Part shown: positions 1 through 29,141 of the stretch, one piece after another
Numbering within the stretch: the stretch's first letter is position 1
Layout of the letters: each line of letters starts with the position of its first letter
From: Scylla paramamosain
Lineage: Eukaryota > Arthropoda > Malacostraca > Decapoda > Portunidae
DNA length: 64,000 bases
Assembly: GCF_035594125.1 (NCBI RefSeq)
Contig: NC_087198.1
Location: forward strand, 1,400,599 to 1,464,598
Direction: 5' to 3'
Notes under the pieces: model-generated
Told to the model about the DNA's origin: nothing
Databases searched by the model: none
What the model saw: only the letters and a program-made list of their open reading frames with translations
Program-made: the position numbers and the translations under genes

Positions 1-1156
1 GGTAATGTCATTTTTTTTCCCCACATCAAGGCAGTTTCGCATGTAATTTTGCACTTTCGTAACTAAGAATGTGAAAAACACTCAAAATACACAATTTGGT
101 AAGGTAGTCCTGTTTATCAATTAAAAGTGTTATTCATGCATTTCATCATTTTGGTATGTAAGAAATTTCTCTATATACACGAGTTTTTGCGTTTATTGCC
201 TTGTGGTTCTTTTAAAACTATAAAACACTCATTATACACGTTTCTCGTAATGTCGTTTTGTTTCCTAATATAGAGTGCTTTACATCCATTTTTGCATTTT
301 TTTTGTAGGTAACAAGCTCAAAAATACTCAAAATATATCTTTTTGGTAATGTTATTCTATTTCTTCATAAAGGTTGGTTTGCATCCGCTTTAGAGTTTTT
401 CTACGTAAAACACTGAAAAGACACGTTTTCAGTAATTTTCTTTTTGATTCTCATATTCACTGACTTCCATATTATTTATCGTTTTAGTGCCTAACATGCT
501 GAAAAACACTGAAGGGACAGGTTTCTGGTAAAGTCGTTTAATTTCCCTATAGAGGTGGCTTTGCATGCACTTTAGGGTTTGGTACATAACAATCCGAAAA
601 AAAAGCTATAAATAACTCTTTTGGTAATGTTCTTTTTTCCACATAAATTCCCTGAAATTTGGTAGAATTTTGGCATCTCGGTACCTATATGGATAAATAA
701 CAAAAAAAAATAAATAAATAAAAAAAAAATAAATAAATAAATAAAAAATCCAATTTTTCAAATTTTTGTTAATTATTTTTTTCTAGATAAAGAGTGTTAT
801 ATGTGGGTTTTAGCTTTTAGGTACTGAAAGAACTTTTAGGTACTGAAAGAAAAACACTCATAATACACGTTTCTCGTAATGTCCTTTCGTTTCCCAAACA
901 TAAAGTTCTTTGCATGTATTTAAGCGTTTTTATAAATATCATGATCAAAAACACTCAAAATACATGTATTTGGTAATATTATTCTGTTTCTCCATAAAAT
1001 GTATTTTGCATGCATTTTAGCGTTTTGGTATGTAAGGAGCTCCAAAACACTTAAAGGCAAGTTCTTGGTAAAATTTGCTTTTATTCCCATGTAATGTGAT
1101 TGCCCTTCCTTTTAGTGCTTTATTGCGTAACACGTTCAAAAACACTCAAAAGACAT

Positions 1157-1610
1157 GCAAGGCCTCGCATATGAGGAAATAAGAGACCTTACCAGAAATC
1201 TGTCTTTTGAGTGTTTTCAGCACGTTAGGCACCAAAACGATAACTAATAAAGAACTCACTCTATGTGGGAATCCAAAAGAAAATTGCTGAAAACCTGTTT
1301 TCTCAGTGTTTTACGTGTTTACGCAAACCAACCAATATCAAGAAGCAGAAAAACATTACCAAAAATGTATATTTTGAGTGTTTTTGAGCTTGTTACCTAC
1401 AAAAAAAAAACGCAAAAATTGATACAAAGCACTCTATATTGGGAAACAAAAGGGACATTGCAAGAAAAGTGTATAATGAATGTTTTATAGTTCAAAAAAA
1501 CCACAAGGCAAAAAATGCAAAAACTCGTGTATATGGAGAAGTTTTCTAGATACCAAAATGCAGAAACTCGTGAATAACAATCTTAATTGAGAAACAGACC
1601 AAATGCGTGT
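1157..1610 (-). repeat. Inverted HOR module, copy 1 of 5
   Basis: Inside a + strand array, this stretch reads as epsilon(start)-delta-gamma-beta-alpha on the - strand. The left junction is at AGACATGCAAGG, where the forward delta end and the reversed epsilon core share CAT. The right junction is at AAATGCGTGT followed by CAAAAACACT, returning to the forward gamma end. The same pair of junctions occurs at four other places in the window. Confidence 0.85.
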
Positions 1611-4506
1611 CAAAAACACTAAAAGGCAAGTTCTTCGTAAAAGTTGGTTTTATTCCCATGTAATATGATTGCCATGCTTTTTAGTGGTTTATTGCCTAAC
1701 ACGCTGAAAAACACTCAAAGACACTTTTCTGGTAATGTCATATTTTTCCCACATAAAGCTAGTTTCGCATGGAATTTGGGGTTTTGGTAACTAAGAATGT
1801 AAAAAAACACTCAAAATACACGCATTTAGTGATTTTGTTCTGTTTCTTGATTAAAAGTGTTATTCGTGAGTTTCAGAATTTTGGTATCTTAGAAACTTCT
1901 CCATACAGTCGAGTTTTTGCGTTTTTTGCCTTGTGATTCTGGTGAAACTATAAAACACTCATTATATACGCTTCTAGTTATGTCCTTTTTTTTTCCTTAT
2001 ATAGAGTGCTTTGCATCCATTTTCGCGTTTTTTTTATGTAACATGCTCAAAAACACACAAAATATACTTTTTTGGTAATGTTATTCTATTTATTTATATT
2101 AGTTGGTTTGCATCTGTTTTAGCGTTTCTCTGCGTAAATCTTTTAGAAGACACGTTTCCAGTAATTTTGTTTTGGATTTCCATATAGAGTGACTTTCATA
2201 TCATTTATCGTTTTGGTGCCTAACATGCTTTTTGGTGCCTTTTGCTTCCCAATATAGAGTGCTTTTCATCCATTTTCGCGTTTTTTGTAGGTAACAATTT
2301 CAAAAACACAAAAAATATACCATTTTGGTAATGTTAATCTATTTCTTCATTTTGGTTGTTTTGCATCCATTTTAGCGTTTTCTACGTAAAACACCGAAAA
2401 GACACGTTTTCAGTAATTTTGTTTTAGATTCTCATATAGATTGACTTCCTTGGGTTTTATCGTGTTGGTTCTTAACATGCTGAAAAACACTCATAAGACA
2501 GTTTTCAGGCAAAGACATTTAATTTCCCCATATAGGTGGCTTTGCATGCACTTTAGGGGTTTGGTACATAACACTCCGAAAAAAAAAGCTAAATTTAACT
2601 TTTTTGATAATGTCCTTATTTCATATAATTTCCTGAAATTTTCCCGAATTTTGGCACCTCGTTACCTGTGAAGATGAATAAGAATGAAAAAAAATTTTTT
2701 TTTTCTCAATAAAGAGTGTAATTTGTGGCTTTTAGCTTTTTCGTACTTAATGAATTTAAAAGCACTCATAATACACGTTTCTCGTCATGTCCTTTCATTT
2801 TCCCAAAATGGGGTTCTTTGCATGTATTTAAGTGTTTTTATTGGTAACATGATCAAAAACTCTCAAAATACATGTTTTTGGTAATGTTATTCTGTTTCAC
2901 CATCAAGTGTATTTTGCATGTATTTTAGTGTTTTGGTATATAACGAGCTCAAATACACTTAAAGGCAAGTTCTTGTTAAAAATTTGTTTTATTTCAATGT
3001 AATGTGATTGCCCTGCTTTTTAGTGCTTTATTGCCTAACACGCTCAAAAACACTCAAAAGACATTTTTCTGGTAATGTCATTTTTTTTCCCACATAAAGC
3101 TGGTTTCGCATGTAATTTGGAGTTTTGGTAACTAAGGATATGAAAAGCACTCAAAATACACGCATTAAGTAAGATGGTTCTGTTTCTCAATTAAGAGTGT
3201 TGTTCCAGAGTTTCAGCATTTTGGAATGTAAGAAACTTCTCTATATACACAAGTTTTTGCGTTTTTTGCCTTGTAGTTCTTGTGAAACTATAAAACACTC
3301 ATTATACACGTTCCTCATAATGTCCTTTTGCTTCCCAATATAGAGTGCTTTCCATCCATTTTCGTGTTATTTGTAGGTAACAGTTTCAAAAATGCTCAAA
3401 ATATACCTTTTTTGGTAATGTTATTTCATTTCTTCATATTGATTGGTTTGCATCCGTTTTAGCGTTTTTCTACGTAAAACACCGAAAAAACACGTTTTTA
3501 GTAATTTTGTTTTGGATACCCATATACATTGACTTCCATATTATTTATGGTGTTGGTTCCTAACATGCTGAAAAACACTCATAAGACCGTTTTCTGGCAA
3601 AGACGTTTAATTTCCTCATATAGGTGGCTTTGCATGCACTTTAGGGGTTTGGTACATAGCAGTCCGATAAAAACTTAATTTAACTTTTTCGATAATGTTC
3701 TTATTTCACATAATTTCCTGAATTTTGCCCGAATTTTGGCATGTCGGTACCTGTGAAGATGAATAAGAAAGAAAAAAAATATTGCAATTTTTTTTATTTA
3801 TTTATTGTTTCTCAATAAAGAGTGTTATTTGTGGCTTTTAGCTTTTTGGTAATTAATGAACTTAAAAACACTCATAATACACATTTCTCGTAATCTCCTT
3901 TCGTTTCCCAAAAATAGTGTTCTTTGCATGTATTTAAGCGTTTTTATTGGTAACATGATAAAAAAAAACACTCAAAATACATGTTTTTGTTAATGTTATT
4001 CTGTTTCACCATAAAGAGTGTTTTCAATGCGTTTTAGTGTTTTGGTATATAAGGAACTCAAAAACACTTAAAGGCAAGTTCTTGGTAAAAATTCGTTTTC
4101 CTCCAATGTAATGGGATATCCCTCTTTTTTAGTGCTTTATTGCCTATCACGGTCAAAAACACTCAAAAGACATTTTCTGGTAAAGTCATATTTTTTATCC
4201 CACAAGTCTATTTTTGCATGCAATTTGGAATTTTGGTAACTAAGAATGTGAAAAGCACTAAAAAACACATGCATTTATTAAGGTTTTTCTGTTTCTCAAT
4301 TAGGAGTGTTATACATGAGTTTTAGCATTTTTGTATCTAGGTAACCTCTCCATATACACGAGATTTTGCGTTTTTTGCCTTGTGGTTCTTTTGAACTATA
4401 AAACACTCATTATACACTTTTCTTGCAATGTCCTTTTGTTTCCCAATATAGGGTGCTTTTCATCAATTTTCGCGTTTTTTTTTTTTTTTAGGTAGCAAAA
4501 TATATC

Positions 4507-4565
4507 TTTTTAGTAACTTTTTTAGTAACTTTTTTAGTAACTTTTTTAGTAACTTTTTTAGTAAC
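4507..4565. repeat. 12-bp minisatellite, about 5 copies
   Basis: Five consecutive copies of TTTTTTAGTAAC (the first one base shorter) sit at the end of a beta monomer, where other units have a single TTTTTGGTAATGTT. This is a local slippage expansion of the monomer end. Confidence 0.9.
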
Positions 4566-5596
4566 GTTTTTCTATTTATTGATATTGGTTGCTTTGCATC
4601 CGTTTTAGCGATTTTCTACGTAAAACACTGAGAAGACATGTTTTCAGTAACTTTGTTTTGGAATCCCATATAGAGTGAGTTCCATATTATTTATCGTTTT
4701 GGTGCCTAACATGCTAAAAAAAAACACTCAAAACACAGATTTCTGGTAAGGTCGTTTAATTTCCTCATATAGGAGACTTTGCATGCACTTTAGGGTTTGG
4801 TACATAAGAATCCGAAAAAAAAGCTGAAATTAACTTTTTTGATAATATTTTTTTATCATATAATTGCCCTGAATTTTCCCAGAATTTTGGCATCTCGGTA
4901 CCTATGAATATGAATAACAAAAAAAAAAAAAAAATTCCTATTTTTAAAATTTCTTTTATTTTTTATTTTCTAAATAAAGAGTGTTATTTGTGGGTTTTAG
5001 CTTTTTGGTACTTAAGGAACTTAAAAAAAACACTCATAAAACACTTTTCTCGTAATGTCCTTTTGTTTCCCAAACATAATGTTCTTTCCATGTATTTAAG
5101 CGTTTTTATAGATAACATGATAAAAAACACTCAAAATACATGTTTTTGGTAATGTTATTCTGTTTCTCCATAAAGTTTGTTTTGCATGCGTTTTAGCGGT
5201 TTGGTATCTAAGCAGCTCAAAAACACTTAAAGGCAAGTTTTTGGTATAAATTGGTGTTATTCCAATGTAATATCATTGCCCTGCTTTTTAGTACTTTGCA
5301 TTTTGGATACCAAAATTGCCTATCACGCTGAAAAACACTTAAAAGACACTTTTCTGGTAATGTCATTTTTTTCTCACATAAAGGTTATTTCGCATGCAAT
5401 TTGGGGTTTTGGTAACTAAGAATGTGAAAAGCACTCAAAATACACGCATTTAGTAAGGTTGTTCTGTTTCTCAGTTAAGAGTGTTATTCATGAGTTTCAG
5501 CATTTTGGTTTCTAGGAACCTTCTCCATATACACGTTTTTGTGTTTTTTGCCTTTTGGTTCTTTTGAACTATAAAAAAAAAACTCATAATACACAT

Positions 5597-5941
5597 TTGC
5601 CAAAAACGTGTATTTTGAATGTTTTTCAGCTTATTTCGTATCAATACGCAAAAATTCATCCATTTCACCCTTTATAAGGTAAAGAGACGACATTCCCAGA
5701 AAAAAAATGTTATTTCGGGGCTTTTCAGCGTTAGCCACCAAAACTCTAAAGAGCATGGAAGACACTCTATATAAAAATCAAAACAACATTATCAAAATGG
5801 TGTCTTTTGTGTGTTTTTGAGCTTCTTACATTCCAAAATGCTAAAACGCTTGCACAATAGCCTTTATCGGGAGACATTACCAAAAACGTATGATTTAAGC
5901 GTTTTCCAGCTTTTTAGAAACCAAAACGCCTAAATGGATGT
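5597..5941 (-). repeat. Short satellite block, - orientation
   Basis: At about 5597 the array flips: forward text ending ACTCATAATACACAT is followed by reverse text CCAAAAACGTGTATTTTGAA. About 3.5 monomers are on the - strand, up to CCAAAACGCCTAAATGG, after which the + orientation resumes. The last 85 bp belong to the inverted-repeat arm described at 5857-7415. Confidence 0.8.
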
Positions 5942-7415
5942 GCTAATCACGTGTTTCAGTATTTTATTACCTAAGAAGCTCAAAAACACTTATAATATAC
6001 GTTTTTGGTAATGTTGTTCTGTTTTTTATATATATGGTATTCTGTATAGATTGTTGTACCTAACATGAGGAAAAAACCCATTTGTTTGGTTAATTTGTGT
6101 GCATTTTGGCGTTTTCGTACCCAACAAGCTCAAAAACACTCAAAACACACATTTTTGGTAATGTTCTATTTCACCATAAAGGATGTTTTGCACGCTTTTT
6201 AGAAATTTGGTACGTAAGAGGCTCAAAACATTCAAAAGACACGTTTTCGATGTTTTATATTCTTTTTTTCCTATATAGAGTTCTCCATGTTTTTTTTTTT
6301 TGTGGGGTTGGTTTCTAATATGGTCAAAACACTCAAATGACACATTTCCGGTAATATAATTTCTTTACATCAAATAGTGTGCTGTCTGCATTTTGGCGTT
6401 TTGGTAGCTAATGATCGGGAAAACTCTCAAAACACGAGTTTATAGTAATGTTGTCCTCTTTCTCCAGAAAGGGTTTTTTCATGCGTTTTAGAGTTTTAGT
6501 ACGTAAGAAACTGAAAAACACTCAAAAGACAAGTTTTTGTTAATATTGATTGCTTTTCCTATAAAGGTTCTCTTGCATGCACTTTGGTGTTTTTGTATCT
6601 AACAAGCTCAAAAACACTCAGCATACAAGTTTTTCGTAATGTTGGTCTGTTTTTTTTTTTTTTTTATGTATGGTGTTCACTATGCTTTTAGGCGTGTTGG
6701 TACCTATCATGGGGAAAAAAAACTTATAAAGTACGCTTTTGGTAATGTTGTTTTCTTTCTGCAAATATAGTATTATTTACGTGTTTTAGACTTTTGGTAT
6801 CTATGAAGCTGAAAAAGACATAATACACCTTTATGTTAATATCGTTTCTTTTACCTATATAGGGTAATTTGCATACATTTTGGAGTTTTGTTACCTAACA
6901 AGCTAAAAAAAATCTCAGAACATACGTTTTTGCTAATATTGTTTTGGACGCCTTTTATCGTTTTGGTACGTAAAAAGCTCAAAAACGCTCGATTTTGTTA
7001 ATGTTATCTTGTTTTCCCATATAGGGTGTTTTCCTTGCTTTTTTAGCATTTTGCTGCCTAATACGCTCAAAACACCTAAATGACAAGTTTCTGGTGGTTT
7101 TGCTACTGGTTTTGTTAATGTTTGTTTTTTTTATTTCTCTCATATAGAGTAATATTCACGTGTTTTAGCGTTTTGGTACATAAAAAAAAAATAAAAATAA
7201 AAACACTCATAATGCACGTTTCTTTTAATATCGTTTCGTTTCCTTAAATAGGGTTCTTTGCATGCAATATGGGGTCTAGTACCTAACAAGTTAAAAGACA
7301 CTGAAATAAGAATTTTTTGCTAAAGTTTCTCATAAATGTTTCTTTGCTCATATTTTAGCGTTTTGTACGCTCAAAAACACTAAAAAGAAACGTTTTTGAC
7401 AATATTATTCTGTTT
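5857..7415 (+). repeat. Left arm of a ~1.6 kb inverted duplication
   Basis: This segment reappears reverse-complemented at about 15710-17357. Shared private features, read base by base at several points, include TTTATCGGGAGACATTACC (near 5863 and, reversed, near 17350), the chain GTGCTAATCACGTGTTTCAG, CATCAAATAGTGTGCTGTCT (near 6367 and, reversed, near 16740), and GGTTTTGCTACTGGTTTTGT (near 7096 and, reversed, near 16020). These are diagnostic variants, not general monomer similarity. Small indels separate the arms. Confidence 0.85.
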
Positions 7416-7554
7416 CTCCATGAAGTTTCTTTTCTATGCATTATAGTGTTTTGGTACGTAAAAAGCTGAAAACACTCAAAAGACACGTTTTTGTTTGTTT
7501 CTCCAGTATAACTTACTTTCCATGCATTTTGGCGTTTTCGAAAACATTACTAAT
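5942..7554 (+). repeat. Satellite block, 5-mer HOR, + orientation
   Basis: About 16 monomers of the five types in order on the + strand. They are more diverged from each other than those of the 12-mer zone, and several are truncated (for example around 6930 and 7340). The block ends near 7541-7570 where CATTTTGGCGTTTTCG meets reverse-strand text AAAACATTACTAATACATG. No gene is seen. Confidence 0.8.
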
Positions 7555-9170
7555 ACATGTTTTTGTACCCCAAATGAGGAAAGGAAACGCGATTTCCAGA
7601 AAAGTGCCTTTTGAATGTTTATTGGAGTGCTAGGCACCAAAACGCTAAAAAGCATGGAAAGCACCCTATAAAGGAAAACAAAACAACTGAACCAAAAACG
7701 TCTGTTTTCAGTGTTTTTGAGTTTCTTACCTACCGAAACGCTAAAAGGCATAAAAAAAAAAAACATGAAGAAATAATATTATAAAAAAAAAAAATTAAAA
7801 AAGCATGGAAAGCACCCTATAAAGGAAAACAAAACAACTTTACCATAAACGTGTGTTTTCATTATTTTTTACTTTCTTACGTACTGAAACGCTAAATCGC
7901 ATGAAAAAAAAAAACGGAGAAATAATATCAAAAACAAATATTTCGAGTGTTTTTGAGTTAGTTAAGTAGAATAACGCCAAAATGAATATATAGTATCTTA
8001 AATAGGAAAATGAAAAGACGTTATTAAAATATGTACTATTGGTGTTTTTTTTTTTTACTTATTAGGTACGAAGTCGCTAAAATGCATGAATAACACTCTA
8101 TATGAAATAACATTACCAAAAACGTATATTTTCAGTGTTATCACATTGTTATGAATGAAAACGCCATAATGCATGTAAAACCCCCTATTTGAGGAAAGGA
8201 AACGAGACCAGAAACGTGTCTAAAATGTGTTCTTCAGCGTGTTAGGCACAAAAATGCTAAAAAGCATACAAATCACCTGATATGGGAATACAAAATAACA
8301 TAAATAAAACGTTTCTTTTGAGTGTCCTACGTACCAAAACGATAAAAAAAAAAAAACAGAAAACATCCTTTATGGAGAAACAGAATAACATTACCAAAAA
8401 CAAGTATTTTTAATGTTTTATAAGATTGTTACGTAAAAACGCTTAAATGAATCGAAAATACCCTATATAGGAAAAATGAAAAGACATTACGAGAAACGTG
8501 TATTATGAGTGTTTTCGACCTTCTTAGTATCAAAAGGGTAAAACGCATGAATAACGCTCTATATGGAGAAAAAGAACAATATTGCCAAAAAAAAAAGAAC
8601 GTCATTTTGAGTGTTATGACATTGTTAGTTACCAAAAAGCCAAAATGCATGCAAAGACCCATATATAGATATATGAAACGACATTAAAAACGCATGAGAA
8701 TACCCTATATGGAGAAACAGAATACATTTACCCAAAACGTGTATTTTGAGTGTTTTTGAGCTTGTTATGTACAAAATCGCCTATCATCAAACAAAACACC
8801 CTGCATATGGAAATGAAAGGACATTACGAGAAACGTTTGTTATGTTTTTTTTTTTTTTATTATTACTCTCTTAAGTACCAAATCAGTAAAAAGCTTCAAT
8901 AGTGCTCTGAAGAAAAAGAACAAACTTACCAAAAACGTGTATTTTTTTACACTGATAATTACTAAAATGCCAACATGCATGTCAAGCAACCTATATGAAG
9001 AAATGAAACGAAATAATTAGAAACTTGTCTTTTGTTATATTTTGAGCGTGTTCGGCACCAAATCAGTAAGAAGCAACGAAATCACCCTATAGGGGAATAC
9101 AGAACTACTAAAACGTCTCTTTAGAGTGTTTTTTTAGATTCTTACGAACTAAAATGTCGAAATACACTCC
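7555..9170 (-). repeat. Satellite block, 5-mer HOR, - orientation
   Basis: Monomers read on the - strand with the alpha-beta-gamma-delta-epsilon order. The stretch 7576-9170 is duplicated in direct orientation at about 17479-18845. An internal partial repeat is also visible: GCATGGAAAGCACCCTATAA occurs near 7655 and again near 7803. Confidence 0.85.
7576..9170 (-). repeat. Direct duplication, copy A (partner 17479-18845)
   Basis: Both copies share private text such as AAACGCGATTTCCAGAAAAG, CACCTGATATGGGAATACAA, ATCAAACAAAACACCCTGCA and ATCAGTAAGAAGCAACGAAA in the same order. Copy B lacks about 100 bp (copy A 8577-8680), and copy A carries an extra duplicated monomer piece near 7655-7800. The similarity stops in both at GAACTAAAATGTC..., where copy A passes into 12-mer type repeats. 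Confidence 0.85.
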
Positions 9171-12100
9171 TTTATGGAGAAGCAGAATAACATTAACAAA
9201 AGTAAGTTTTTTTGAGTGTTTTTTTAACATGTTACCTGTAAAAAACGCTGAAATACATGCAAAGATCCCTATATTTGGGAAACGAAAGGACATTACGAGA
9301 AATGTGTATTATGAATGATTTTAAGTTCCTTAAGTACCAAAACGTTAAAACCTACAAATAACACTTTATAGAGAAAAAAAAAAAAAATAAATAAAAAAAT
9401 AGCATTTTTATTTTTTTGTTATTGATGTTCATAGGTACCAATATGCCAAAATTCTGCAAAAATTCAGGGAAATTATTTGGAAAAAAGAACATTATCGAAA
9501 AAGTTAATTTTACCTTTTTTTCGGAGTTATGTACCAAACCATAAAGTGTATGCAAAGCCACCTATTTGGGAAAATTTAAAGACTTTACAAGAAACCTGTC
9601 TTTTGAGTGTTTTTCCGCATGTTAGGCACCAAAACGATAGCTAATATGAAAGTCACTCTATATAGAAATCCAAAACAAAATTACTGAAAACATGTCTTTT
9701 AAAAGATTTACGTAGAAAAATGCTAAAACGGATGCAAACCAACCAATATGAAAAAATAGAATAACACTACCAGAAAAGTATATTTTGTGTGTTTTTGAGC
9801 TTGTTGCATGAAAAAAAAAAAACCGCAAAAATGGATGCAAAGCACTGTATATTAGGAAAAAAAAAAAGGACATTACGAGAAACGTGTATAATGAGTGTTT
9901 TATAGTTTCACCAGAATCACAAGGCAAAAAACGCAAAAATTCGTCTGTGTGGAGAAGTTTCTAAGATACCAAAATGCTGAAACTCATGAATAACACTCTT
10001 AATCAAGAAACAGAACAACGTTACTAAATGCGTGTATTTGAGTGTTTTTTTTTTACATTCTTAGTTACCAAAACCCCAAATTCCATGCGAAACTAGCTTT
10101 ATGTGGGAAAAAATGACATTACCAGAAAAGTGTCTTTGAGTGTTTTTGAGCGTGTTAGGCAATAAAGCAGGGCAATCATATTACATGGGAATAAAACCAA
10201 CTTTTACGAAGAACTTGCCTTTTTTTGTGTTTTTGACACACATTCAGTTTCTCAATTAAGAGTGTTATTCATGAGTTGCAGCATTTTCGTATCTAGGAAT
10301 TTTCTCCATATATACGAGTTTTTGCTTTTTTTGCCTTGTGGTTTTTTGAACTATAAAACATTCATTATACACTTTTCTCGCAATATCCTTTTCTTTCCCA
10401 ATATAGAGTGCTTTGTATCAATTTTTGCGTTTCTTTGTAGGTAACAAGCTCAAAAACACTCAATATATACATTTTTAATAATGTTTTTCTGCTTCTTGAT
10501 ATTGGTTGGTTTGCATCAGTTTTAGCGTTTTTCTACGTAAAACACTGAGAAGACAAGTTTTCAGTAATTTTTTTTTTGGATTCCCACATAGAGTGAGTTC
10601 CTTATTATTTATCGTTTTGGTGCCTAACATGATGAAAAACACTCAAAAGACAGATTTCTGGTAATGTCTTCAATTTCCTCATATGCGAGGCCTTGCATGT
10701 CTTTTGAGTGTTTTTGAACGTGTTACGCAATAAAGCACTAAAAAGGAAGGGCAATCACATTACATGGGAATAAAACCAAATTTTACCAAGAACTTGCCTT
10801 TAAATGTTTTGAGCTCCTTACATACCAAAACGCTAAAACGCATGCAAAATACATTTTATAGAGAAACAGAATAATATTACCAAATACATGTATTTTGAGT
10901 GTTTTTGATCATGTTATCTATAAAAACGCTTAAATACATGCAAAGAACCTTATGTTTGGGGAACGAAAGGACATTACGAGAAACGTGTATTATGAGTGTT
11001 TTTTTTTTAAGTTCCTTCAGTACCTAAAAGCTAAAACCCACAAATAACACTCTTTATTTACAAAAAAAAAAAAAATAATAATAAACAAAAAAATTAAAAA
11101 ATAGGATTTTTTTTTGTTATTCATCCTTATAGGTACCGAGATGCCAAAATTCTGCTAAAATTCAGGGAATTTATGTGGAAAAAAAAACATTACCAAAAAA
11201 GTTAATTTTAGCTTTTTTTTCGGATTATGTACCAAACCCTAAAGTGCATGCAAAGCCACCTATATAGGGAAGTTAAACGACTTTACCAGAAACCTGTCTT
11301 TTCAGTGTTTTTCAGCATGTTAGGCACCAAAACGATAAATAATATGGAAGTTAATTACTGAAAACTGAAAATTACTGAAAACGTGTCTTTTCAGTGTTTT
11401 ACGTAGAAAAACGCTAAAGCGGATGCAAACCTACCTATATGAAGAAATAGAATAACTTTACCAAAAAGATTTATTTTGAATGTTTTGGAGCTTTTTACCT
11501 ACAAAAAAATGCAAAAATGAATGTAAAGCACTCTATATTAGGAAACAAAAGGACATTACGAGAAACGTAAGTTTTAAAAGAACCACAAGGCAATAAACGC
11601 AAAAACTTGTGTATATAGAGAAATTTCTTACATAGAAAAAAAAAGATGAAATGCAAGAATAACACTTTTAATCGATAAACAGAACTACCTTACCAAATTG
11701 TGTATTTTGAGTGTTTTTCACATTCTTAGTTACGAAAATGCCAAATTACATGCGAAACTATCTTCATGTGGGAATAAAAATGACTACCAAAAAAGTGTCT
11801 TATTAGTGTTTTTGAGCGTGATATGCAACAAAGCACTAAAAAGCAGAACAATCACATTACATGGGAATAAAACCAACTTTTACGAAGAACTTGCATTTAA
11901 GTGTTTTTTAACTCCTTACATGCCAAATCGCTAAAACGCATGCAAAACACCCTTTATGGAGAAACAGAATAACATTACGAAAAACATGTATTTTGAGTGT
12001 TTTTCATCATGTAACCTATAAAAACGCTTAAATACATGTAAAGAACCCTATGTTTGTATAACAAAAGGACATTACGAAAATCGTGTATTATGAGTGTTTT

Positions 12101-14714
12101 TAAGTTCCTTCAGTACCAAAAAGCTAAAACCCAGAAAAAAACACTCTTTATAGAGAAATTTTTTTTTTTTTGTTATTCATCTTCATAGGTACCGAGATGC
12201 CAAAATTCTGGCAAAATTCATGGAAATTTTATAAAAAAGAAATCATCATAAAAAATAATTTTAGCTTTTTTTCCGGAGTTATGTACAAACCTTGAAGTGC
12301 AGGAAAATCCTCCTATATGGGGAAATTACACGACTTTACCAGAAACCTGTCTTTTGAGTGTTTTCAGCAATTTCAAAAATATTACTGAAAACGTGTCTTT
12401 CAGTGATTTACGAAGGAAAACGCTAAAATGGATGTAAACCAACCAATATGAAGAAATAGAATAACATTACCAAAAAGATATATTTTGATGTGGTTTGAGC
12501 TTGTTACCTACAAAAAATGCAAAAATGGATGGAAAGCACTTTATATTGGCAAAGAAAAAGACATTACGAGAAACGTGTATGAGTGTTTTATAGTTTGAGA
12601 AGAACCACAAAGTAAAAAACTCAAAACTCGTGTACATAAAGAAGTTTCTGACATACCAAAAAGCTGAAACTCATGAATAACACTTTTAAATTTGAAACAG
12701 AAATACTTTAGCAAATGTGTGTATTAGAAAAGTTTCTTACATACTAAAATGCTGAAACTCATGAATAACACTTTTAATTAAGAAATAGAACAACCTTACT
12801 AAACGCCTGTGTTTTGAGTTTTTTTCACATTCTTAGTTACCAAAACCCCAAATTCCATGCAAAACTAGCTTTATGTGGGAAAACAAATGATATTACAAGA
12901 AAAGTGTCTTTTGAGTGTTTTTGAGCGTGTTAGGCAATAAAGCACTAAAAAGCAGGGCAATCACATTAGATGGGAATAAAAACATTTACCAAGAACTTGC
13001 CTTTAAGTGTTTTTGAGCTCATTACATACCAATACGCTAAAACGCATGCAAAACACTTTTTATGGAGAAACAAAATAAGATTACCAAAAACATATATTTT
13101 GAGTGTTTTTGATCATGTTATCTATAAAAACGCTCAAATACATGCAAAGAACCTTATGTTTGCGAAACGAAAGGACACTACGAGAAATGTGTATTATAAG
13201 TGTTTTTAAGTTCCTTAAGTACCAAAAAGCTAAAACGCACAAATAAGACTCTTGATTTAGAAAAAAAAAGTAAGAAAATGAAAAAATAGGATTTTTTTTT
13301 TATATTCATCTTCATATGTACCGAGATGCCAAAATCCTGGGAAAATTCAGGACTATTATATGATAAAAGAAAATTATCAAAAAAGTTAATTTTAGCTTTT
13401 TTTTTTTCGGACTGTTATATACCAAACCCTAAATTGCATGCAAAGCCTCCTATATGAGGAAATTAAACGACCTTAAGAGAAATCTGTGTTTTGAGTGTTT
13501 TTTTTCAGAATGTTAGGCACCAAAACGATAAATAAATAAGGAACTCACTCTATATGGGAATTCAAAACAAAATTACTGAAAACGTGTCTTCTCAGTGTCT
13601 TACGTAGAAAAACGGTAAAACGGATGCAAGCAAACCAATATAAAAAAAATAGAAAAACATTATCAAAAAGGTATATTTTGAGTTTTTCTGAGCTTGTTAC
13701 CTACAAATAACATGAAAATTGATGCAAAGCACTCTATATTAGGAAAGAAAAGGACATTGCAAGAAAAGTGTATAATGAGTGTTTTATAGTTCAAAAGAAC
13801 CAAAAGGCAAAAAACGCAAAAACATGTGGATAAGGAGAAGTTTCCTACATACCAAAATTTTGAAACTCATGAATAACATTCCTAATTGAAAAACAGAACA
13901 ACTTTACTAAATGCGTGTATTTTGAGAGCTTTTCACATTCTTAGTTACCAAAACCCCAAATTGCATGCGAAACCAGCTTTATGTGAGAAAAAAATGACAT
14001 TACCAGAATAATGTCTTTTGAGTGTTTTTGAGCCTGATAGGCAATAAAGCACTAAAAAGCAGGGGAATCACATTACATTTTAATAAAACCAATTTTTATC
14101 AAGAACATGCCTTTAAGTGTTTTTGAGCTCCTTATATACTAAACCACTAAAACGCATGTAAAACAAACTTTATGGAGAAACAGAATAAAATTACCAAAAA
14201 CATGTATTTTGAGTGTTTTTGATCGTGTTATCTATAAAAACGCTTAAATACATGCAAAGAACCTTATGTTTGGGAAAGAAAAGGACATTACGAGAAACGT
14301 ATATTATGAGTGTTTTTAAGTTTGTTAAGTACCAAAAACCTAAAACCCAATCTTTATTTAGAAAAATAAATAAATAAAAAATAAAAAAAATAGGATTTTT
14401 TTTTTTGTTATTCATCTTCATAGGTACCGAAATGCCAAAATTCTGGGAAAATTCAATGCAATTATATGATAAGAGAAAATTATCAAAAAAATTGATTTTA
14501 GCTTTTTTTTCGGACTGTTATGTACCAAACCCTAAACTGCATTCAAAGCTTCTTATATAAGGAAATTAAACGACCTTACCAGAAATCTGTCTTTTGAGTG
14601 TTTTCAGCATGTTAGTCACCAAAATGATAAATAATAAGGAACTCACTCTATATGGGAATCCAAAACAAAATTACTGAAAATGTATCTTCTCAGTGTTTTA
14701 CATAGAAAAAACGC
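9171..14714 (-). repeat. Satellite block, 12-mer HOR, - orientation
   Basis: The same 12-monomer unit as at the left end, read on the - strand. Marker text on this strand includes GTTAGGCAATAAAGCACTAA (second delta), CATAGGTACCGAGATGCC followed by A/T runs (second alpha'), and AACCACAAGGCAAAAAACGC (first alpha'). About 4.5 units are present, several with internal deletions. It contains one inverted module (10236-10695). The join to 5-mer type repeats is near 14715. Confidence 0.87.
10236..10695 (+). repeat. Inverted HOR module, copy 2 of 5
   Basis: A + strand segment inside a - strand array. It runs from TTTTTGACACACATTCAG through alpha, alpha', beta, gamma and delta to CCTTGCATGTCTTTTGAG. 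It is the reverse complement of the arrangement at 1157-1610, and both junctions correspond. Confidence 0.85.
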
Positions 14715-17280
14715 AAAAAATGTGTCGAGTGTTTTTCAGCTTACGTACTAAAACGGTAAAACGCATGGAAAACACTGTTTGTGTTGAAAAAAAAATACCA
14801 ACAAGGTGTATTTTGAGTTATCAGCGTAATAAGTAGTAAAACGCCAAAATGCATGCAGAGCGCCTATATGAAGTAACGAAACGACATTTCTAAAAACGTG
14901 TCATTTAGGTGTTTTTTTTTTTTTTTTTTAGGGTATTAGGCACCAAAACGTTAAAAAAAAAAACATGGAAAATACCCTATATAGGAAAATTAAACAACTT
15001 CAACAAAATCGAGTACTTTGTGTACTTTTAAGCTTCTTACGTAACAAAACGATAACTAAACTAAACAAAAACTTGTGTTTGAGTGTTTTTGAGCTTGTTA
15101 GATAAGTAATCGCCAAAATGCATGCAAAGTTTCAGATATGGAGAAAAGAAAAGATATTAACGCTGTTTTTCATCTTCTTATGTAACGAAACGCTAAAACA
15201 CGTAAATAGCATTCTATATGAAGAAACAGATCATTATTACGAAAAACGTGTATTATGGGTGCTTTTCCCCATGTTAGGGACCAAAACGCCAAAATACATA
15301 TAAAGCATCCTATATGAAGAAACAGGACGATATGATCAGAAACATGTATTATGAATATTTTTGAGTTTGTGAGTTATCAAAACGCCAAAGTACATGCAAA
15401 GCACCCTATAGAAGAAGAAAAAAAAATATTACCAAAAACATATCTTTTGAGTGTTTTTCAGCTTCGTACGTACCGAAACTCTAAAAGGGATTGAAAACGC
15501 ACTTTACTGAGAAATAGAACATTAAAAAAAAAACGTGTGTTTTAAGTGTTTTTAAGTTAGGTACCAAAACGACAGAATGCATGTAGAATACCTTGTCTGG
15601 AGTAACTAAAAGATAGTACCTGCAACGTGCCATTTGGAAATTTTCGAGCAAATTAGGCAACAAAAAAGCTAAAAAGCATGGAAATAGCTCTATATGAGAA
15701 AAGAAAACAACATTGTCAAAAACGTTTCTTTTTAGTGTTTTTGAGAGTACAAAACACTAAAATGTGAGCAAAGAAACATTTATGGGAAATTTTAGCAAAA
15801 AATTCTTATCTCAGTCTTTTAACTTGTTAGGTACCCATATTGCCCCATAAACCCCATATTGCATGCAAAGGACCCTATTTGAGGAAACGAAACGATATTA
15901 ACAGAAACGTGTATTATGAGTATTTTTATTTATTTTTTTTTTTTTTTATGTACCAAAACACTAAAACACGTGAACATTATTCTATATGAGGGGAAAAAAA
16001 AACTTTAACAAAACCAGTAGCAAAACATCACCAGAAACTTTTCATTTAGGTGTTTTGAGCATATTAGACAGCAAAACGCTTAAAAAGCAAGGAAAACACT
16101 CTACATGGGCAAACGAGATAACCTTAACAAAATCGAGTGTTTTTGAGCTTCTTACGTAACAAAACGATAAAAGATGTCCGAAACAATATTAGCAAAAACG
16201 TATGTTCTGAAATTTTTTTTAGCTTGTTAGGTAACAAAACGCCAAAATATATGTAAATTACCCTATATAGGTAAATGAAATGATATTAACATAAAGGTGT
16301 ATTATGTCTTTTTCAGCTTCATAGATACCAAAAGTCTAAAACACGTAAATAATACTATATTTGCAGAAACAAAACAACATTACCAAAAGCGTACTTTATG
16401 AGTTTTTTCCCCATGATAGGTACCAAAACGCCTAAAAGCATAGTGAACACCATACATAAAGAAACAGACCAACATTACGAAAAACTTGTATGCTGAGTGT
16501 TTTTGAGCTTGTTAGATACAAAAACACCAAAGTGCATGCAAGACAACCTGTATAGGAAAAGCAATCAATATTAACAAAAACTTGTCTTTTGAGTGTTTTT
16601 TCAGTTTCTTACGTACTAAAACTCTAAAACGCATGAAAAACACCCTTTATGGAGAAAGAGGACATTACTATAAACGTGTTTTTTGAGAGTTTTCCCGATC
16701 ATTAGCTACCAAAACGCCAAAATGCAGACAGCACACTATTTGATGTAAAGAAATTATATTACCGAAAACGTGTCATTTCAGTGTTTTGAGCATAATAGAA
16801 ACCAACCCCAACAAAAAATATATATACATATATAATATCGAAAACGTGTCTTTTGAATGTTTTTGAGCTTCTTACGTACCAAATTTCTAAAAAGCGTGCA
16901 AAACATCCTTTATGGTGAAATAGAACATTACCAAAAATGTGTGTTTTGAGTCTTTTTGAGCTTGTAGGGTGGGAAAACGCCAAAATGCACACAAATTAAC
17001 GGACATTGACAAACTAAAAGTTATTAAGAAAAAATATTATTATGAGTGTTTTTTAACTTCTTATGTACGAAAACACTAACATACGTGAATATCACTCTAC
17101 GAGTATATGGAGAAAAAAGCATTAACCAAAAAAATGGGTGTTTTCCTCATGTTAAGTACGACAATCTACACAGAATACCATATATGAAAAACAGAAAAAC
17201 ATTACCAAAAACGTATATTATAAGTGTTTTTGAGCTTCTTAGGTAATAAAATACTGAAACACGTGATTAGTACATATATT
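14715..17280 (-). repeat. Satellite block, 5-mer HOR, - orientation
   Basis: Diverged - strand monomers in 5-mer order. From about 15710 onward this is the right arm of the inverted duplication with 5857-7415. T-runs of 15-20 bases occur at alpha monomer ends (for example 14918-14939 and 15928-15947). No gene is seen. Confidence 0.8.
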
Positions 17281-17357
17281 ATGGCGTTTTGGTTTCTAAA
17301 AAGCTGGAAAACGCTTAAATCATACGTTTTTGGTAATGTCTCCCGATAAAGGCTATT
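15710..17357 (-). repeat. Right arm of a ~1.6 kb inverted duplication
   Basis: Reverse complement of 5857-7415, identified by shared private variants listed for the left arm. The last 77 bp (17281-17357) lie on the + strand relative to monomers, exactly matching the reversed 5857-5941 part of the left arm, so the copied block already contained that strand switch. The arm ends 15 bp before the (TA)n tract. Confidence 0.85.
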
Positions 17358-17371
17358 TATCGTTTTAGCAT
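17281..17371 (+). repeat. Single + strand monomer piece next to (TA)n
   Basis: About 90 bp reading GGCGTTTTGGTTTCTAAAAA on the + strand between - strand arrays. It is the inverted copy of 5857-5941. Confidence 0.75.
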
Positions 17372-20410
<3,039 letters not shown>

Positions 20411-20469
20411 ATATTTCGTTGATAAATTACATTCAGGACAGTTAGGGAACATCACTTAGAGAAGAATAA

Positions 20470-22052
20470 GATCACAGAAAAATGGTCCTAAATGGATGAC
20501 TGAGGTTAAAACACTACATAGGGCGAAAGAGAAGTATATATGAGATTAAAGACAGGGGAAGTGGTTTTAAGGCCATAATATAATGAATTAGAAAAGTCAG
20601 GAGTTTAACAAGGAAAGCTAAAAATAGTTAAGCATTAAAGGTAGCCAGCCAAGCGAAGATGGACCCCAAGGGATTTTATCAGGCATATAACACGAAGAAT
20701 AGAGAAACAATAGTTCCTTAAAGACAACAGAATGGGACCTGCTTAGTTGTTGAGAGGAAATTAGTAAAGTTGTGAATGAGTATTTTTTAACTGTCTTTGC
20801 CCAGGAAAACATGCAGGATTTGCCGAATAGTGAGAAGATATTTAGAGTAGAAGAGAATGAGAAGCTGACAGATATTACCATAAAAAAAAGAGACAGTGGA
20901 ACAGGAGATAGATAAGCTGAAAAGTTCAAGTCACCAGGACCAGATGAAATATATTTCAGAGTATTTAAGAGTTGGAAAAAGGTTATAAGTAATCTGGATA
21001 AGGTCATGGCCAAGCGGCAGGCGACAGAGTGTTGTAATAAACGGCTCTAAATCCGAGTGGGGTCAAGTAATTAGTGGGGTGATAAAGGGATTATTAGTAT
21101 TAGGGCCGATGTTCTTTGTAATATATGTCAGTGACTTGGATAGTGGAATTAGTAGTGCTGTTAGTAAATTTGCGGATGACACGAGAGTATGTAGATTAAT
21201 TAGGTCAGAATCGCATACCATCGATGGCCTTGCAGGCAGATTTGGATAGGATGAACGAATGGACAGACAGACGGCAAATGCAGTTTAATATCAAGAAATG
21301 CAAAGCACTTAGCGTACGTAGAAGAAACCCACACAGTAGTTACACAATGAACAACCAAGTTCTGGTAGGTTCAGGGTAAGAAAAAGATTTGAGATTTAAA
21401 GTTAGCTCTGAACTCCGTCTAAGAAAGCAATGCAAAGAGGCCAGAAACAAAGCAAATAGTGTATTATGATTAATTTTCAGGAGTGCTAAATGTAAAACTC
21501 CCGAAGTAATATTAAAGTTACATTTAGCGCTGGTCAGACTTCATCTAGACTACGCTGTCCTATTCTGGTCACCACATCACAGGAAGGATAAAGGTCTATT
21601 AGAATCACTTCAAAGGAGAATGACTAAAAGGATACAGGGGATGAGGAGTATTCCTTACGAAGCGAGATTCAAGCTGTTAAATTTACATTCTTTAGAGAGA
21701 CGTAGGTTAAGAGTGTACCTGATAGAAGTCTTTAAGAGGTATATGGGTTATAACAAGGGCAACATAAGGAAAATTCTTAGAATCTGTAACCATGATAGAA
21801 CAAGAAAAATAGAAACATTAAGTTTTTAGGCTTGAGACTGAAAACTTGATATTCAAAAAGGAAACAGGAAGGAATTGGTTTTCAAATACAGTAGTAGATG
21901 ATTGGAACGGACTTAGTAATCAAGCTGTTAGTGCTGAGGCATTTGGCACTATAAGAGAAAATTACACATTTATAGATGGGGATGAAAAGTGGAAATACGT
22001 AGGCATATTTCATACAAGTACTGCCACGTGTAGGCCTGATGCCTTCTTGCAT
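20470..22052 (+). pseudogene. Reverse transcriptase remnant of CR1-like LINE, copy 1
   Basis: Pieces of a LINE ORF2-like protein in several frames. In order: the linker before RT (NEYFLTVFAQENMQDLP, with stops before it); an RT part with LGPMFFVIYVSDLD and the catalytic-type box FADD (21169-21180); a frameshift near 21225; DLDRMNEW and MQFNIKK further on; then the post-RT tail KRIQGMRSIPYEARFKLL (21620-21829) and NWFSNTVVDDWNGLSN (21846-22050). The RT core with DFSKAFDKV, present in copy 2, is deleted at 20996/20997. It cannot encode an active protein. The assignment to the CR1/L2 group rests on motif order and 3' tail as I know them, not on a search; a related jockey-superfamily clade is possible. 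Confidence 0.8.
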
Positions 22053-22062
22053 ATTTACTTAT

Positions 22063-22085
22063 TTCTTATGTTCTTATGTTCTTAT
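22063..22085 (+). repeat. LINE 3' tail microrepeat, copy 1
   Basis: Two full TTCTTATG units and a partial third at the end of the CR1-like element. Copy 2 has the same length with one changed base (41193-41215). Confidence 0.85.
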
Positions 22086-23859
22086 TACCAAAAGCGTGTA
22101 TTTTCAGTATTTTCAGCTCTTCCGTGAAAAAAATAAAATGCCAAAATGCATGCAAAGCACCCTAAATGAAGAAAAAAAAGCGACATTACGAGAAACGTGC
22201 ATCATAAGTGTTTTTGAGATTCTTAGATACCAAAACGCTGAAACTCATGAATAACACTCTTAATTGAGAAACAGAACAACCTTACCAAATGCGTGTATTT
22301 TTTGTGTTTTTCACATTTTTGGTTACCAAAATCCCAAATTGCATACGAAACTAGCTTTATGTGGAAAGAAAAAAAAAAAGACATTTCCAGAAAAGTGTCT
22401 TTTGAATGTTTTTGAGCGTGTTAGGCAATAAAGCACTAAAAAGCAGGGCAATCACATTACATGGGAATAAAACCAACTTTTACCAAGAACTTGCCTTTAA
22501 GTGTTTTTCAGCTCCTAACATACCAACACACTAAAACGCATGCAAAACACCCTTTATGAAGAAACAGAATAACATTACCAGAAACATGTATTTTGAGTGT
22601 TTTTGATCATGTTAACTATAAAAACGCTTAAATACATGCAAAGAATCTTATGTTTGGGAAACGAAAGAACATTTCGAGAAACGTGTATTATGAGTGTTTT
22701 TAAGTTCTTTAAGTACCAAAAAGCTAAAACCCACAAATAAGACTCTTTATAGAGAAAAAAAAAATCAATCAATCAATAAAAAAAATAGGATTTTTTTATT
22801 CATCTTCATAGGTACCGAGATGTCAAAATTCTGCCAAAATTTAGGGAAATTATGTGAAAAAAGAACCTTATGAAAAAAGTTAATTTTAGCTTTTTTTTTC
22901 GGACTATTATGTACCAAACCCTAAAGTGCATGCAAAGCCACCTATATGGGAAAATTAAACGACCTTACCAGAAACCTGTCTTTTTTTTTTTTTTTTTTCA
23001 GCATGTTAGGCACCAAAACGATAAATAATATGGAAGTCACTCAATGTAGGAATCCATCACAAAATTACTGAAAAGGTGTCTTTTCAGTGTTTTACGTAGA
23101 AAAACGCTAAAACGGATGCAAACCAACGAATGTGGAGAAATAGAATAACATTACCAAAAAGGTATATTTTGAGTGTTTTTGAGCTTCTTACCTTCAAAAA
23201 ACGCGAAAATGGATGGAAAGCACTCTATGTTGGGATACAAAAGGACATTACAAGAAACGTGTATAATGAGTGTTTTATAGTTTCACATCAGCCACAAGGC
23301 AAAAATCGCAGAAACTCGGTGTATATGGAGAAGTTTCTTAGATACCAAAATGCTAAAACTCAGAAATATCACTCTTAATTGAGAATACAGAACAACCTTA
23401 CCAAATGCATGTATTTTGAGTGCTTTTCACATTCTTAGTTACCAAAACCAAAAATTGCATGCGAAACTAGCTTTATGTGGGAAAAAATGATATTACGAGA
23501 AAAGTGTCTTTTGAGTGTTTTTGAGCGTGATAGGCAATAAAGCACTAAAAAGGAGGGCAATCACATTATTTGGGAATAAAACCAACTTTTACCAAGAACC
23601 TGCCTTTACATGTTTTTGAGCTTCATACATACCAAAACGCTAAAACGCATGCAAAACACCCTTTATGGAAAAACAGAATAACATTACCAGAAACATGTAT
23701 TTTGAGTGGTTTTGATCATGTTACCTATAAAAGCTTCTAAATACATGCAAAAAAACCCTATGTTTAGAAAATGAAAGGGTATTACGAGAAACGTGTATTA
23801 TGAGTTTTTTTTTTAAGTTCGTTATGTATGAAAAAGCTAAAACCCACAAATAACACTCT
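22086..23859 (-). repeat. Satellite block after LINE, 5-mer passing into 12-mer HOR, - orientation
   Basis: One beta monomer and part of an alpha of 5-mer type follow the LINE. From about 22216 the array is 12-mer type (CTCATGAATAACACTCTTAA, then GTTAGGCAATAAAGCACTAA). About 1.4 units are present. The block ends at the hairpin at 23852-23871. No gene is seen. Confidence 0.85.
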
Positions 23860-23871
23860 TTATAGAGTGTT
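23852..23871. other. Perfect 8-bp inverted repeat at a strand switch
   Basis: AACACTCT-TTAT-AGAGTGTT. The left half is the end of the - strand alpha monomer. The right half starts + strand text that continues with AATGTGAAAAACACTCAAAA, an epsilon end. The monomer orientation changes inside this hairpin. Confidence 0.85.
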
Positions 23872-24066
23872 TTCTTAACAATGTGAAAAACACTCAAAAA
23901 GCACATTTTTGGAATCTTGTTCTTTTCTCCATATAGAGTGGTCTTCAATGTGTCAAAATAGGTCTTGGTACCTTAGAAATAAAAAAAAAAAACACTCATA
24001 ATAAAAGTTTCTTCTAATGTCTTTTCGTTTCCCCTTGCAAAGTGTTTTGCATGCAGTTATGTTTCA
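23872..24066 (+). repeat. Satellite fragment, + orientation, interrupted by LINE
   Basis: About two monomers (alpha and part of beta) on the + strand, broken at GCATGCAGTTATGTTTCA by the poly-A end of the minus-strand LINE. Confidence 0.8.
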
Positions 24067-24806
24067 TTTTTTTTTTTTTTTTTATGTAGGAAGGATACTG
24101 GCCAAGGGCAACAAAAATCTAATAAAAAAAAATGCCCACTGAAATGCCAGTCCCTTAAAAGGGTCAAAGCAGTGGTCAAAAATTGGTGGATAAGTGTCTT
24201 GAAACCTCCCTCTTGAAGGAATTCAAGTCATAGGAAGGTGGAAATACAGAAGCAGGCAGGGAGTTCCAGAGTTTACCAGAGAAAGGGATGAATGATTGAG
24301 AATACTGGTTAACTCTTGCGTTAGAGAGGTGGACAGAATAGGGGTGAGAGAAAGAAGAAAGTCTTGTGCAGCGAGGCCGCGGAAGGAGGGGAGGCATGCA
24401 GTTAGCAAGATCAGAAGAGCAGTTGGCATGAAAATAGCGGTAGAAGACAGCTAGATATGCAACATTGCGGCGGTGAGAGAGGGGCTGAAGACAGTCAGTT
24501 AGAGGAGAGGAGTTGATGAGACGAAAAGCTTTTGATTCCACCCTGTCTAGAAGAGCAGTATGAGTGGAACCCCCCCAGACATGTGAAGCATACTCCATAC
24601 ATGGACGGATAAGGCCCTTGTACAGAGTTAGCAGCTGGGGGGTGAGAAAAACTGGCGGAGACGTCTCAGAACACCTAACTTCATAGAAGCTGTTTTAGCT
24701 AGAGATGAGATGTGAAGTTTCCAGTTTAGATTATAAGTAAAGGACAGACCGAGGATGTTCAGTGTAGAAGAGGGGGGCAGTTGAGTGTCATTGAAGAAAA
24801 GGGAAT
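24067..24806 (-). mobile_element. Jockey-superfamily-like LINE, 3' fragment
   Basis: About 740 bp of markedly higher G+C than the array. Read on the - strand it holds the end of a reverse transcriptase ORF, a short 3' UTR, and a 17-base poly-A tail (the T-run at 24067-24083). It is 5' truncated within the RT ORF, typical of incomplete target-primed reverse transcription. Satellite in + orientation resumes near 24810-24835. I see no clear target-site duplication, but the monomer context makes short ones hard to judge. Confidence 0.85.
24176..24800 (-). pseudogene. LINE reverse transcriptase C-terminal end
   Basis: The open part (24176-24598, 140 residues) starts MEYASHVWGGSTHTALLD and contains FRLINSSPLTD, LSHRRNVAYLAVFYRYFH, PFSGKLWNSLPASVFP and SFKREVSRHL before the stop. 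Upstream, in another frame, NDTQLPPSSTLNILGLSF and LGVLRRLRQFF can be read (about 24625-24800), so one frameshift in a C-run near 24630 separates the two parts. This is the region following the RT catalytic core; the core itself is absent. From memory, near-identical tails are abundant in decapod crustacean genomes, where they are annotated as jockey-like mobile elements. Confidence 0.85.
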
Positions 24807-27800: not shown

Positions 27801-28270
27801 TTTTTAGCGTTTTGGTACCTAATACGCTTACAAACACTGAAAAGACACGTTTCTAGAAGTGTCGTATTTTCCCTCATGTGTGATGCTTTGCATGCATTTT
27901 AGCGTTTTTGTTTCTCCATATAGAGTGCTATTCATTCGCTTTAGCGTTTTGGTACCTAATAAGTTGAAAACACTCATACTGCACGTTTCTCGTAATGTAC
28001 TTTCGTATCCATATATAGTGCACTTTGCACGCATTTGGCGCTTTTGTACGTGACAAGCTTAAGAAATAAAATGAAATACTAGTTTCTGGTAAGGTTATTT
28101 GTTTTTTCCATGAAGGGATTTTTGCAAGCATTTTAGCGTTTTTGTACGTTAGTAGCTGAAAAATACCCCCAAAAATACGTTTTTTGGGGAATGTTGTTTT
28201 TGCTTTTCCAGTATAGGGAAGTTTTCATGCTTTTTACTGTTTTGTTGTTAACAAGTTCATATACACATAT
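24807..28270 (+). repeat. Satellite block, 5-mer HOR, + orientation (reference zone)
   Basis: The clearest view of the 5-mer. Alpha monomers start near 25653, 26098, 26535, 27015, 27503 and 27908, spaced 445, 437, 480, 488 and 405 bp, with beta, gamma, delta and epsilon between them. Type marks: alpha, ACCTAAGAAGCTC and ACTCATAATACACG; beta, GTAACAAGCTC; gamma, CTCCATAAAG and GTAAGTAGCTC; delta, CATGCTTTTTAGCG and GTGCCTAACACGCTC; epsilon, AACAATGTGAAAA. Some monomers are shortened (delta near 25640, beta near 25750, gamma near 26300). No gene is seen. Confidence 0.88.
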
Positions 28271-29141
28271 ACTTGGAAATTATAAAAAAAAAAGTGCCAA
28301 AAACGTGTCTTTTGAGTTTTTTTTTCAGCTTCTTACGTACCAAGAAGGTAAAATGCATGAAAAACACCCTTTATGGAAAAACAGAATAATATCACCAAAA
28401 AGAAATCGTTTGAGAGTTTTTGAGCTTGTTAGGTAGAAAAACGCCATAATGTATGGAAAGTATTCTATATGAAGAAAGAAAAAGACATTACGAGAAACGT
28501 GTATTATGAGTAAATTTGAGCTTCTTAGGTAGTAAAATGTGAAAACGCATGAATAGCACTCTGTATGGATAAACATAACAACATTACCAAAAACGTGTAT
28601 TTTCAGTGTTTTTTTCATATTGTTAGGTGCCAAAAAGCCAAAATGTATGGAAGCCCACTAACTAACAAACAAAACTAAATTTAATGAAACGTGTCTTTTG
28701 AATGTTTATGAAACTGCTTTCCATGCTAAAAAGCATGGAAAGATCACCATATGGGAATAAAAAACTTTATCAAAAACATGTCTTTTCAATCTTTTTGAGC
28801 TTTTTACGTACCAAAACGCTAATACGCTTACAAAACACTCTTTATGGAGAAACAGAATAAAATTGCCAAAAACAAGTATTTTATGTGTTTATGAGCTTGT
28901 TACGTAGAAAACGCAAAAATGCATGCAAAGTAACCTTTATGAGGAAATGAAACGATGTTTCCAGAAACTTGTCTTTTGAGTGTTTAGATACTAAACCGAT
29001 ATAAAGCTTGGAAATCACTTGATTTGAACAACAAAACAACACTAAGGAAAACGAGTCTTTAAAGTGTTTTTGAGCTTATTACATACCAAAAACCTAAGCC
29101 GGATGCAAAAAAAAAAAAAAATCTTCATGGAAACATAATAA

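Follow-up and report, generated by a model that had tools for sequence, protein, structure and literature searches.

The satellite DNA studied here keeps three repeat units of increasing size, a 5-mer, a 12-mer and a unit of ~5.87 kb, and each of the later units was in all likelihood built from its predecessor by duplication of neighbouring monomers (we give this reading a probability of roughly 0.87). The window, by which we mean the whole 64-kb stretch analysed (positions 1400599-1464598 of contig C48), comes from an assembly of 1.21 Gb, and all analysis was done on this one genome. Its COX1, on contig C234, has 97% identity to that of Thalamita integra and 96% to that of Charybdis hellerii; among the 120 matches listed, the best are nearly all from crabs and other decapods, which makes the host a brachyuran crab, probably of the portunids. 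A path between two states of a higher-order repeat (HOR) within one window had been proposed from the letters alone, and this is borne out, as the 5-mer is the older state and the 12-mer was built mainly from two 5-mers.

Matches to a monomer of ~96 bp make up 53.6 of the 64 kb and lie on both strands, the commonest match length being 94 bp under a 96-column model. Hits shorter than 40 nt were dropped before monomer comparison, together with monomers in which 70 or fewer model columns were covered. The main gaps in the satellite are long TA runs, pure or near-pure, and pieces which from our own reading of the sequence we would call LINE-like:

17373-17478: TA run
20411-22083: LINE-like piece
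24060-24839: LINE-like piece
30873-31071: TA run
39390-41213: LINE-like piece
52893-53088: TA run

The pieces at 20411-22083 and 39390-41213 are copies of one element; two aligned stretches show 92-95% identity, and the second copy has ~180 bp more. Both copies lie at a boundary between 5-mer and 12-mer material, so the insertion was probably followed by a duplication of this boundary. The fragment at 24060-24839 carries an open frame of 172 codons on the minus strand and adjoins the other end of a 12-mer zone. Elsewhere in the genome, COX1 gives 87 matches (partials counted) on many contigs, several of them full-length on the large contigs C29, C4 and C2, and these are likely nuclear copies of mitochondrial DNA.

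The sequence-only reading placed a 12-monomer repeat at 1731..5355, and it is real: by segmentation and type HMMs the monomers run a-b-c-d-e-f-g-h-i-j-k-l, with three copies at 1707-5330. Monomers of type c start at 1707, 3046, 4155 and 5331, so that the units measure 1,339, 1,109 and 1,176 bp; the expected size of 1.1-1.2 kb fits the second and third copies, but not the first, which holds an extra f-g-h. The units (from segmentation and type HMMs) and the zones in which they lie (from type HMMs) are as follows:

1707-3045, plus strand: 12-mer unit, enlarged copy (c d e f g h f g h i j k l a b)
2239-2481, plus strand: extra f-g-h block within the enlarged copy, a block also present in C47 and C18 units
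3046-4154, plus strand: 12-mer unit, regular copy
4155-5330, plus strand: 12-mer unit, third copy
1-5.5 kb: 12-mer zone with the three-unit interval 1707-5330 inside
9228-14698, minus strand: 12-mer zone (inverted block 10243-10727 on the plus strand)
22220-23920, minus strand: 12-mer zone
41250-58403, minus strand: irregular 12-mer zone, units with deletions (44228-44724 on the plus strand)
58394-64000, plus strand: 12-mer zone with two inverted d-i blocks

In the regular copy the monomers start at 3046 (c), 3143 (d), 3238 (e), 3292 (f), 3388 (g), 3476 (h), 3571 (i), 3662 (j), 3759 (k), 3864 (l), 3964 (a) and 4060 (b), where the bounds of e, j and k were fixed from the neighbouring monomers. 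Monomer e, only 54 bp long, is a 3' monomer fragment, and in k the first ~40 bp are replaced by A/T-rich filler. At the start of g in the third copy there is a 12-bp tandem repeat (4507-4571, 5.4 copies).

When identity between monomers at a given rank offset was taken across the whole window, the zones were mixed and the 12-mer was masked, while the per-zone version worked. Identity at offset 12 reaches 0.73 in 1612-5520 and 0.77 in 10717-14416, against ~0.54-0.62 at most other offsets; it is weaker elsewhere, at 0.65 in the irregular zone (44727-58403) and 0.57 from a single pair in 58440-60208, so the support is clear in two of four 12-mer zones. The monomers are 0.91 identical to the consensus of their own type (n = 282, e and k excluded), and the types are 0.68 identical to one another (e excluded). 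The repeat is an HOR, as diverged monomers in fixed order recur as a block, with a unit that stands out against other periods as a multiple of the monomer. As to the proposal that the 12-mer occupies the flanking zones, it was found also at ~9.2-14.7, 22.2-23.9 and 41.2-64 kb, but it is not the top level of organisation, being nested in the ~5.87-kb unit.

At five places in the window the d-i block of the 12-mer is inverted between two b monomers (for the first, by segmentation and type HMMs; for the others, by monomer search and type HMMs), and such blocks are also present in loci on C47, C132 and C18 and further along C48:

1142-1603, minus strand: inverted d-i block between two b
10243-10727, plus strand within the minus-strand zone: inverted d-i block
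44228-44724, plus strand: inverted d-i block
60314-60711, minus strand: inverted d-i block
63432-63899, minus strand: inverted d-i block

The 5-mer zones of the window, assigned with a cyclic profile model, are these:

6300-9000, plus strand to 7565 and minus strand after it: 5-mer zone
14800-20411, minus strand: 5-mer zone
24840-28257, plus strand: 5-mer zone
28284-32801, minus strand: 5-mer zone
32837-36670, plus strand: 5-mer zone
36685-39100, minus strand: 5-mer zone

Periods 1-12 were compared on 212 monomers with each of seven zones held out in turn, a test run on the 5-mer zones only, which were picked after the 12-mer type map was seen. Period 5 gave the best held-out likelihood, exceeding period 1 by 3.19 nats per monomer, followed by period 6 (2.35), and in order-shuffled controls the gain was negative in all 12 runs (-0.32 to -1.13). 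Taken singly, six of the seven zones have period 5 as best or tied (the tie, with period 7, is in 14800-20411); in the plus-strand part at 6300-7565, which has 13 monomers, periods 12, 11 and 4 outscore 5. Neighbouring monomers advance by one phase in 191 of 213 steps in the 5-mer zones of the window, and on a strict cyclic path in 171 of 189 single steps. Nine other loci in the genome show the same order, with 235 of 281 steps advancing one phase; five of them were fetched with a 5-mer piece of the window and four via a short pattern which itself contains one P3-P4 step; when one of two probable array copies is counted among the pattern-found loci (leaving three loci), 68 of 84 steps advance one phase. 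Monomer-to-consensus identity in the 5-mer zones is 0.80-0.83, a figure that comes from looser zones than those of the phase model, which were later tightened against 12-mer monomers. Between the five types identity is 0.87, compared with 0.68 among the 12-mer types (e excluded). With phases numbered relative to a, the consensus sequences of P2 and P4 (0.93) and of P3 and P0 (0.92) resemble each other, as if the 5-mer had itself grown from an alternating dimer.

Profiles trained on the 5-mer place nine of the twelve 12-mer types by majority (a at P0, b at P1, c at P2, d at P3, f at P4, g at P0, h at P1, i at P2 and l at P4), which gives the order P0 P1 P2 P3 P4 / P0 P1 P2 - P4. Placement is unanimous for b (32/32), f (30/30), h (27/27) and l (25/25), and lowest for c (19/28). 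For k, the cyclic model is divided between P3 and P0 (11/23 each), while the profile HMM gives P3 in 20/23. Smaller training sets shift some types: with 14800-20411 as the sole training zone, d falls to P0 in 19/31 and to P3 in 12/31, and with 24.8-39.1 kb as the sole training region, P0 is chosen for k in 16/23. P0 and P3 are closely related. Among six offsets compared within the 12-mer, offset 6 scores highest (0.738 vs 0.666-0.680), random matchings of the 12 types equal its mean in 0.2% of draws, and a-g, b-h, c-i and f-l are the best of the 105 pairings possible for those eight types. It had been claimed that each half corresponds to one 5-mer with a duplicated alpha; each half does hold the equivalent of one 5-mer plus one extra monomer, but no clear phase emerges for the extras, e and j.

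A consensus tree of 11 types (e left out) and the five phases joins b-h (85%), c-i (65%), f-l (88%) and d-k (68%), with P1, P3 and P4 at the base of their pairs (97, 73 and 99%). Single nodes are weak because the monomers have only 96 bp. P0 stands beside a and g, and these two do not group as a separate clade; P2 groups with f-l-P4 (58%), next to but outside c-i; and all five P tips are on branches of 0.015 or less. The predicted pairing of the halves by type is thus found for b-h, c-i and f-l, and d-k also group, while a-g fails to appear; similarly, the 5-mer types lie on short branches near the base, as expected of older lineages, except that P2 stands away from its own pair.

The direction of change was read from 442 aligned sites (e and j left out). 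Half 2 alone is changed at 45 sites, and the 5-mer holds the majority state at 41 of these; half 1 alone is changed at 40, with the 5-mer in the majority state at 35. At a further 13 sites both halves agree against the 5-mer, which has the majority state at 10. Derived sites shared between the halves number 13, against a mean of 6.0 over all matchings, and a-g has none. This is suggestive of a common ancestor of the two halves; we had considered it as proof and downgraded it, since the matching by type ranks 2 of 120 and not 1. From the tree, and with the derived states mostly on the 12-mer side, the 5-mer is therefore older and outside both halves, and phase order, tree pairing and polarity together lead to a 12-mer in which a doubled 5-mer is accompanied by two extra monomers.

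The opposite direction, a 5-mer left over from the 12-mer through loss of monomers, has hardly any chance of being correct. Deletion variants of the 12-mer do exist, and the 12-mer side holds the majority state at a few sites (2/45, 3/40 and 2/13 of those differing in half 2, in half 1 and in both). At most differing sites, though, the majority state is in the 5-mer, which contradicts what the sequence-only reading had itself named as fatal to its proposal; the 5-mer is about equally distant from both halves (45 vs 40 sites), its types are more alike than those of the 12-mer, and in the tree most pairs have one of them on a short branch at their base.

With the 12-mer taken as derived from the 5-mer, the order of the steps has to be considered. 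The proposed order was that P3 (the alpha of the sequence-only reading) doubled within the 5-mer to give a 6-mer, and that the 6-mer then doubled. Such a route would explain why exactly one extra monomer lies in the P3 region of each half, P3 is the best phase for both e and j (by about one bit, with the profile HMM), and e and k are alike in having no normal 5' half; P3-P3 doubles also occur twice in the looser cyclic path and at three places in the fetched 5-mer loci, although two of these places probably represent the same array on C7. In the strict zones of the window, however, P3-P3 accounts for none of the two doubles found by typing and none of the one on the strict cyclic path. The route also predicts the pairs d-j and e-k. 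Since d-j is the weakest offset-6 pair by column identity, among pairs with enough columns, the pairing of d, e, j and k was tested separately: d has four derived sites in common with k vs two with j, the local score is 72 for d-k vs 44 for d-j, and j attaches to the tree apart from P3. The sequence pairs d with k, contrary to the prediction, and we consider doubling of P3 before doubling of the unit rather doubtful. The extras flank P3 on opposite sides, e after it in half 1 and j before it in half 2, and this placement, like the d-k pairing, is what would be expected if the 5-mer had doubled first to a 10-mer and e and j had been added separately, and j, which of all full-length types resembles the others least, also conforms to this. 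We see about even odds for this order. No 10-mer array was found: when d followed immediately by f was sought as an exact pattern, six places matched, and the four of them examined proved to be 5-mer loci and not 10-mers.

The third unit was found by alignment to an array on C47:

201-6124, plus strand: one copy of the ~5.87-kb macro-unit

Window positions 201-6170 are 94.0% identical to this array over 6,025 aligned positions. The macro-unit comprises 65 monomer matches, 11 of them inverted, and takes in a short segment of 5-mer sequence. Part of the 12-mer interval (1.2 kb), for which 40 of 13,837 candidate places were scored, matches C47 and C18 at spacings of 5,844-5,883 bp or near multiples, plus larger gaps. 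Successive copies are 99.5-99.95% identical where read on C47 and C18, and 98.4-98.5% on C132. Identity thus orders the three states by age, from 0.80-0.83 in the 5-mer zones through 0.91 in the 12-mer to 98.4-99.95% between macro-unit copies. In the tandem array the 5-mer piece is cut at window position ~6124 and joined to ~200, whereas in the window itself the 12-mer order runs on to the left of 200 and monomers run on to the right of 6124. The junction at 5.7-6.9 kb recurs with at least 1,100 of 1,201 bases at 38 of the 40 places scored for it (95-100%, the window included), on many contigs; at the 37 places other than the window, identity is 95-99%. Since the order continues past both points and the junction recurs, the tandem 5.87-kb array is most simply read as a derived form of a window-like arrangement.

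Could the mosaic of zones and the inversions be partly an artefact of assembly? The contig is full of near-identical repeats and switches strand many times, which is where such errors would be expected, but the 5.7-6.9 kb junction is present across many contigs and the inverted d-i blocks recur on C47, C132, C18 and further along C48, and an artefact is in our view very improbable. About 186 kb further along C48 there is a segmental copy of window ~4.2-14.5 kb, 98.7-99.7% identical where sampled (4199-8398, and 12004-14541 at 99.7%). We also considered that the whole 64 kb is one repeat copied there, and rejected it, since four 3-kb samples at the equivalents of ~24, 36, 48 and 60 kb had no match.

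Across the genome, the 120 scored places (three queries, the window counted three times) lie on 34 contigs. Two or more are found on 20 contigs, and in 19 of these they fall within one interval of <2 Mb, C22 being the exception; some of the contigs are short, and on C4 a pattern match lies ~2.2 Mb from the scored place. Such a grouping fits a putative centromeric or pericentromeric block.

The history that we propose would begin with the spread of the ~96-bp monomer as a 5-mer unit. A segment of two 5-mers, in each of which one monomer had been added or changed, would then have become a new unit of 12 monomers and ~1.1 kb, which spread with variants, one of them bearing the inverted d-i block. 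Later, a stretch of ~5.87 kb (about five 12-mers, an inverted block and a bit of a 5-mer zone) would have become the unit of arrays elsewhere. The mechanism was most likely unequal crossing-over or a similar form of amplification, and the older states may persist because they are no longer homogenised.

Layering of HORs is known in kind from alpha satellite, and here it is unusually legible. The human X alpha-satellite 12-mer has also been traced to pentamers. Primate alpha satellite has a pentameric ancestral order W1-W5 for SF3 and layered dead centromeres (PMC2729386, PMC4496801), and the crab satellite is similar in that units arise from a pentameric order, old diverged layers lie beside young homogeneous ones and history can be followed via monomer classes. 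Unlike the ~171-bp monomer of primates, the crab monomer has 96 bp, and an inverted block belongs to some crab units. The CENP-B box pattern has no exact match in the window, where 0.13 would be expected by chance. A very long unit by monomer number is also known from the cascading 59mer HOR of orangutan alpha satellite, for which a copy divergence of ~0.1% is reported, compared with 0.05-0.5% for the macro-unit on C47 and C18; the crab unit differs in its ~65 monomer matches, 11 of them inverted (PMC11276891). As the crab unit consists of about five 12-mer copies, many monomers occur in it more than once. Among arthropods, the ~110-bp satellites of Tribolium madens with macro-dyad symmetries are comparable as short satellites in large regions with many inversions and conserved transition zones, though there two satellites alternate, while in the crab it is the unit sizes of one satellite (PMC13081366). 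In the literature on crustacean, decapod and portunid satellites we found no decapod paper by title, which does not establish absence from print; of decapod repeat papers, PMC10454600 does not use the term "higher-order" in its main text, and PMC7859515 is another, judged by its title.

As far as the surveyed literature goes, layered satellite histories have so far come mostly from primates. It is a tentative and rather unlikely idea that satellites of unrelated animals may share one growth route, from a pentamer to a 12-mer to a much longer unit, with a window-like 12-mer/5-mer junction as the birthplace of the 5.87-kb unit; if true, unit growth would be channelled by mechanism (the register of crossing-over, or kinetochore-linked amplification) and not by sequence. 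What the crab locus keeps side by side is a decayed 5-mer, a 12-mer that is younger and one copy of a ~5.87-kb unit that is younger still, with a polarity that is testable by sequence. It is an independent case of HOR growth, and its junctions are markers with which the steps could be traced in related crabs.
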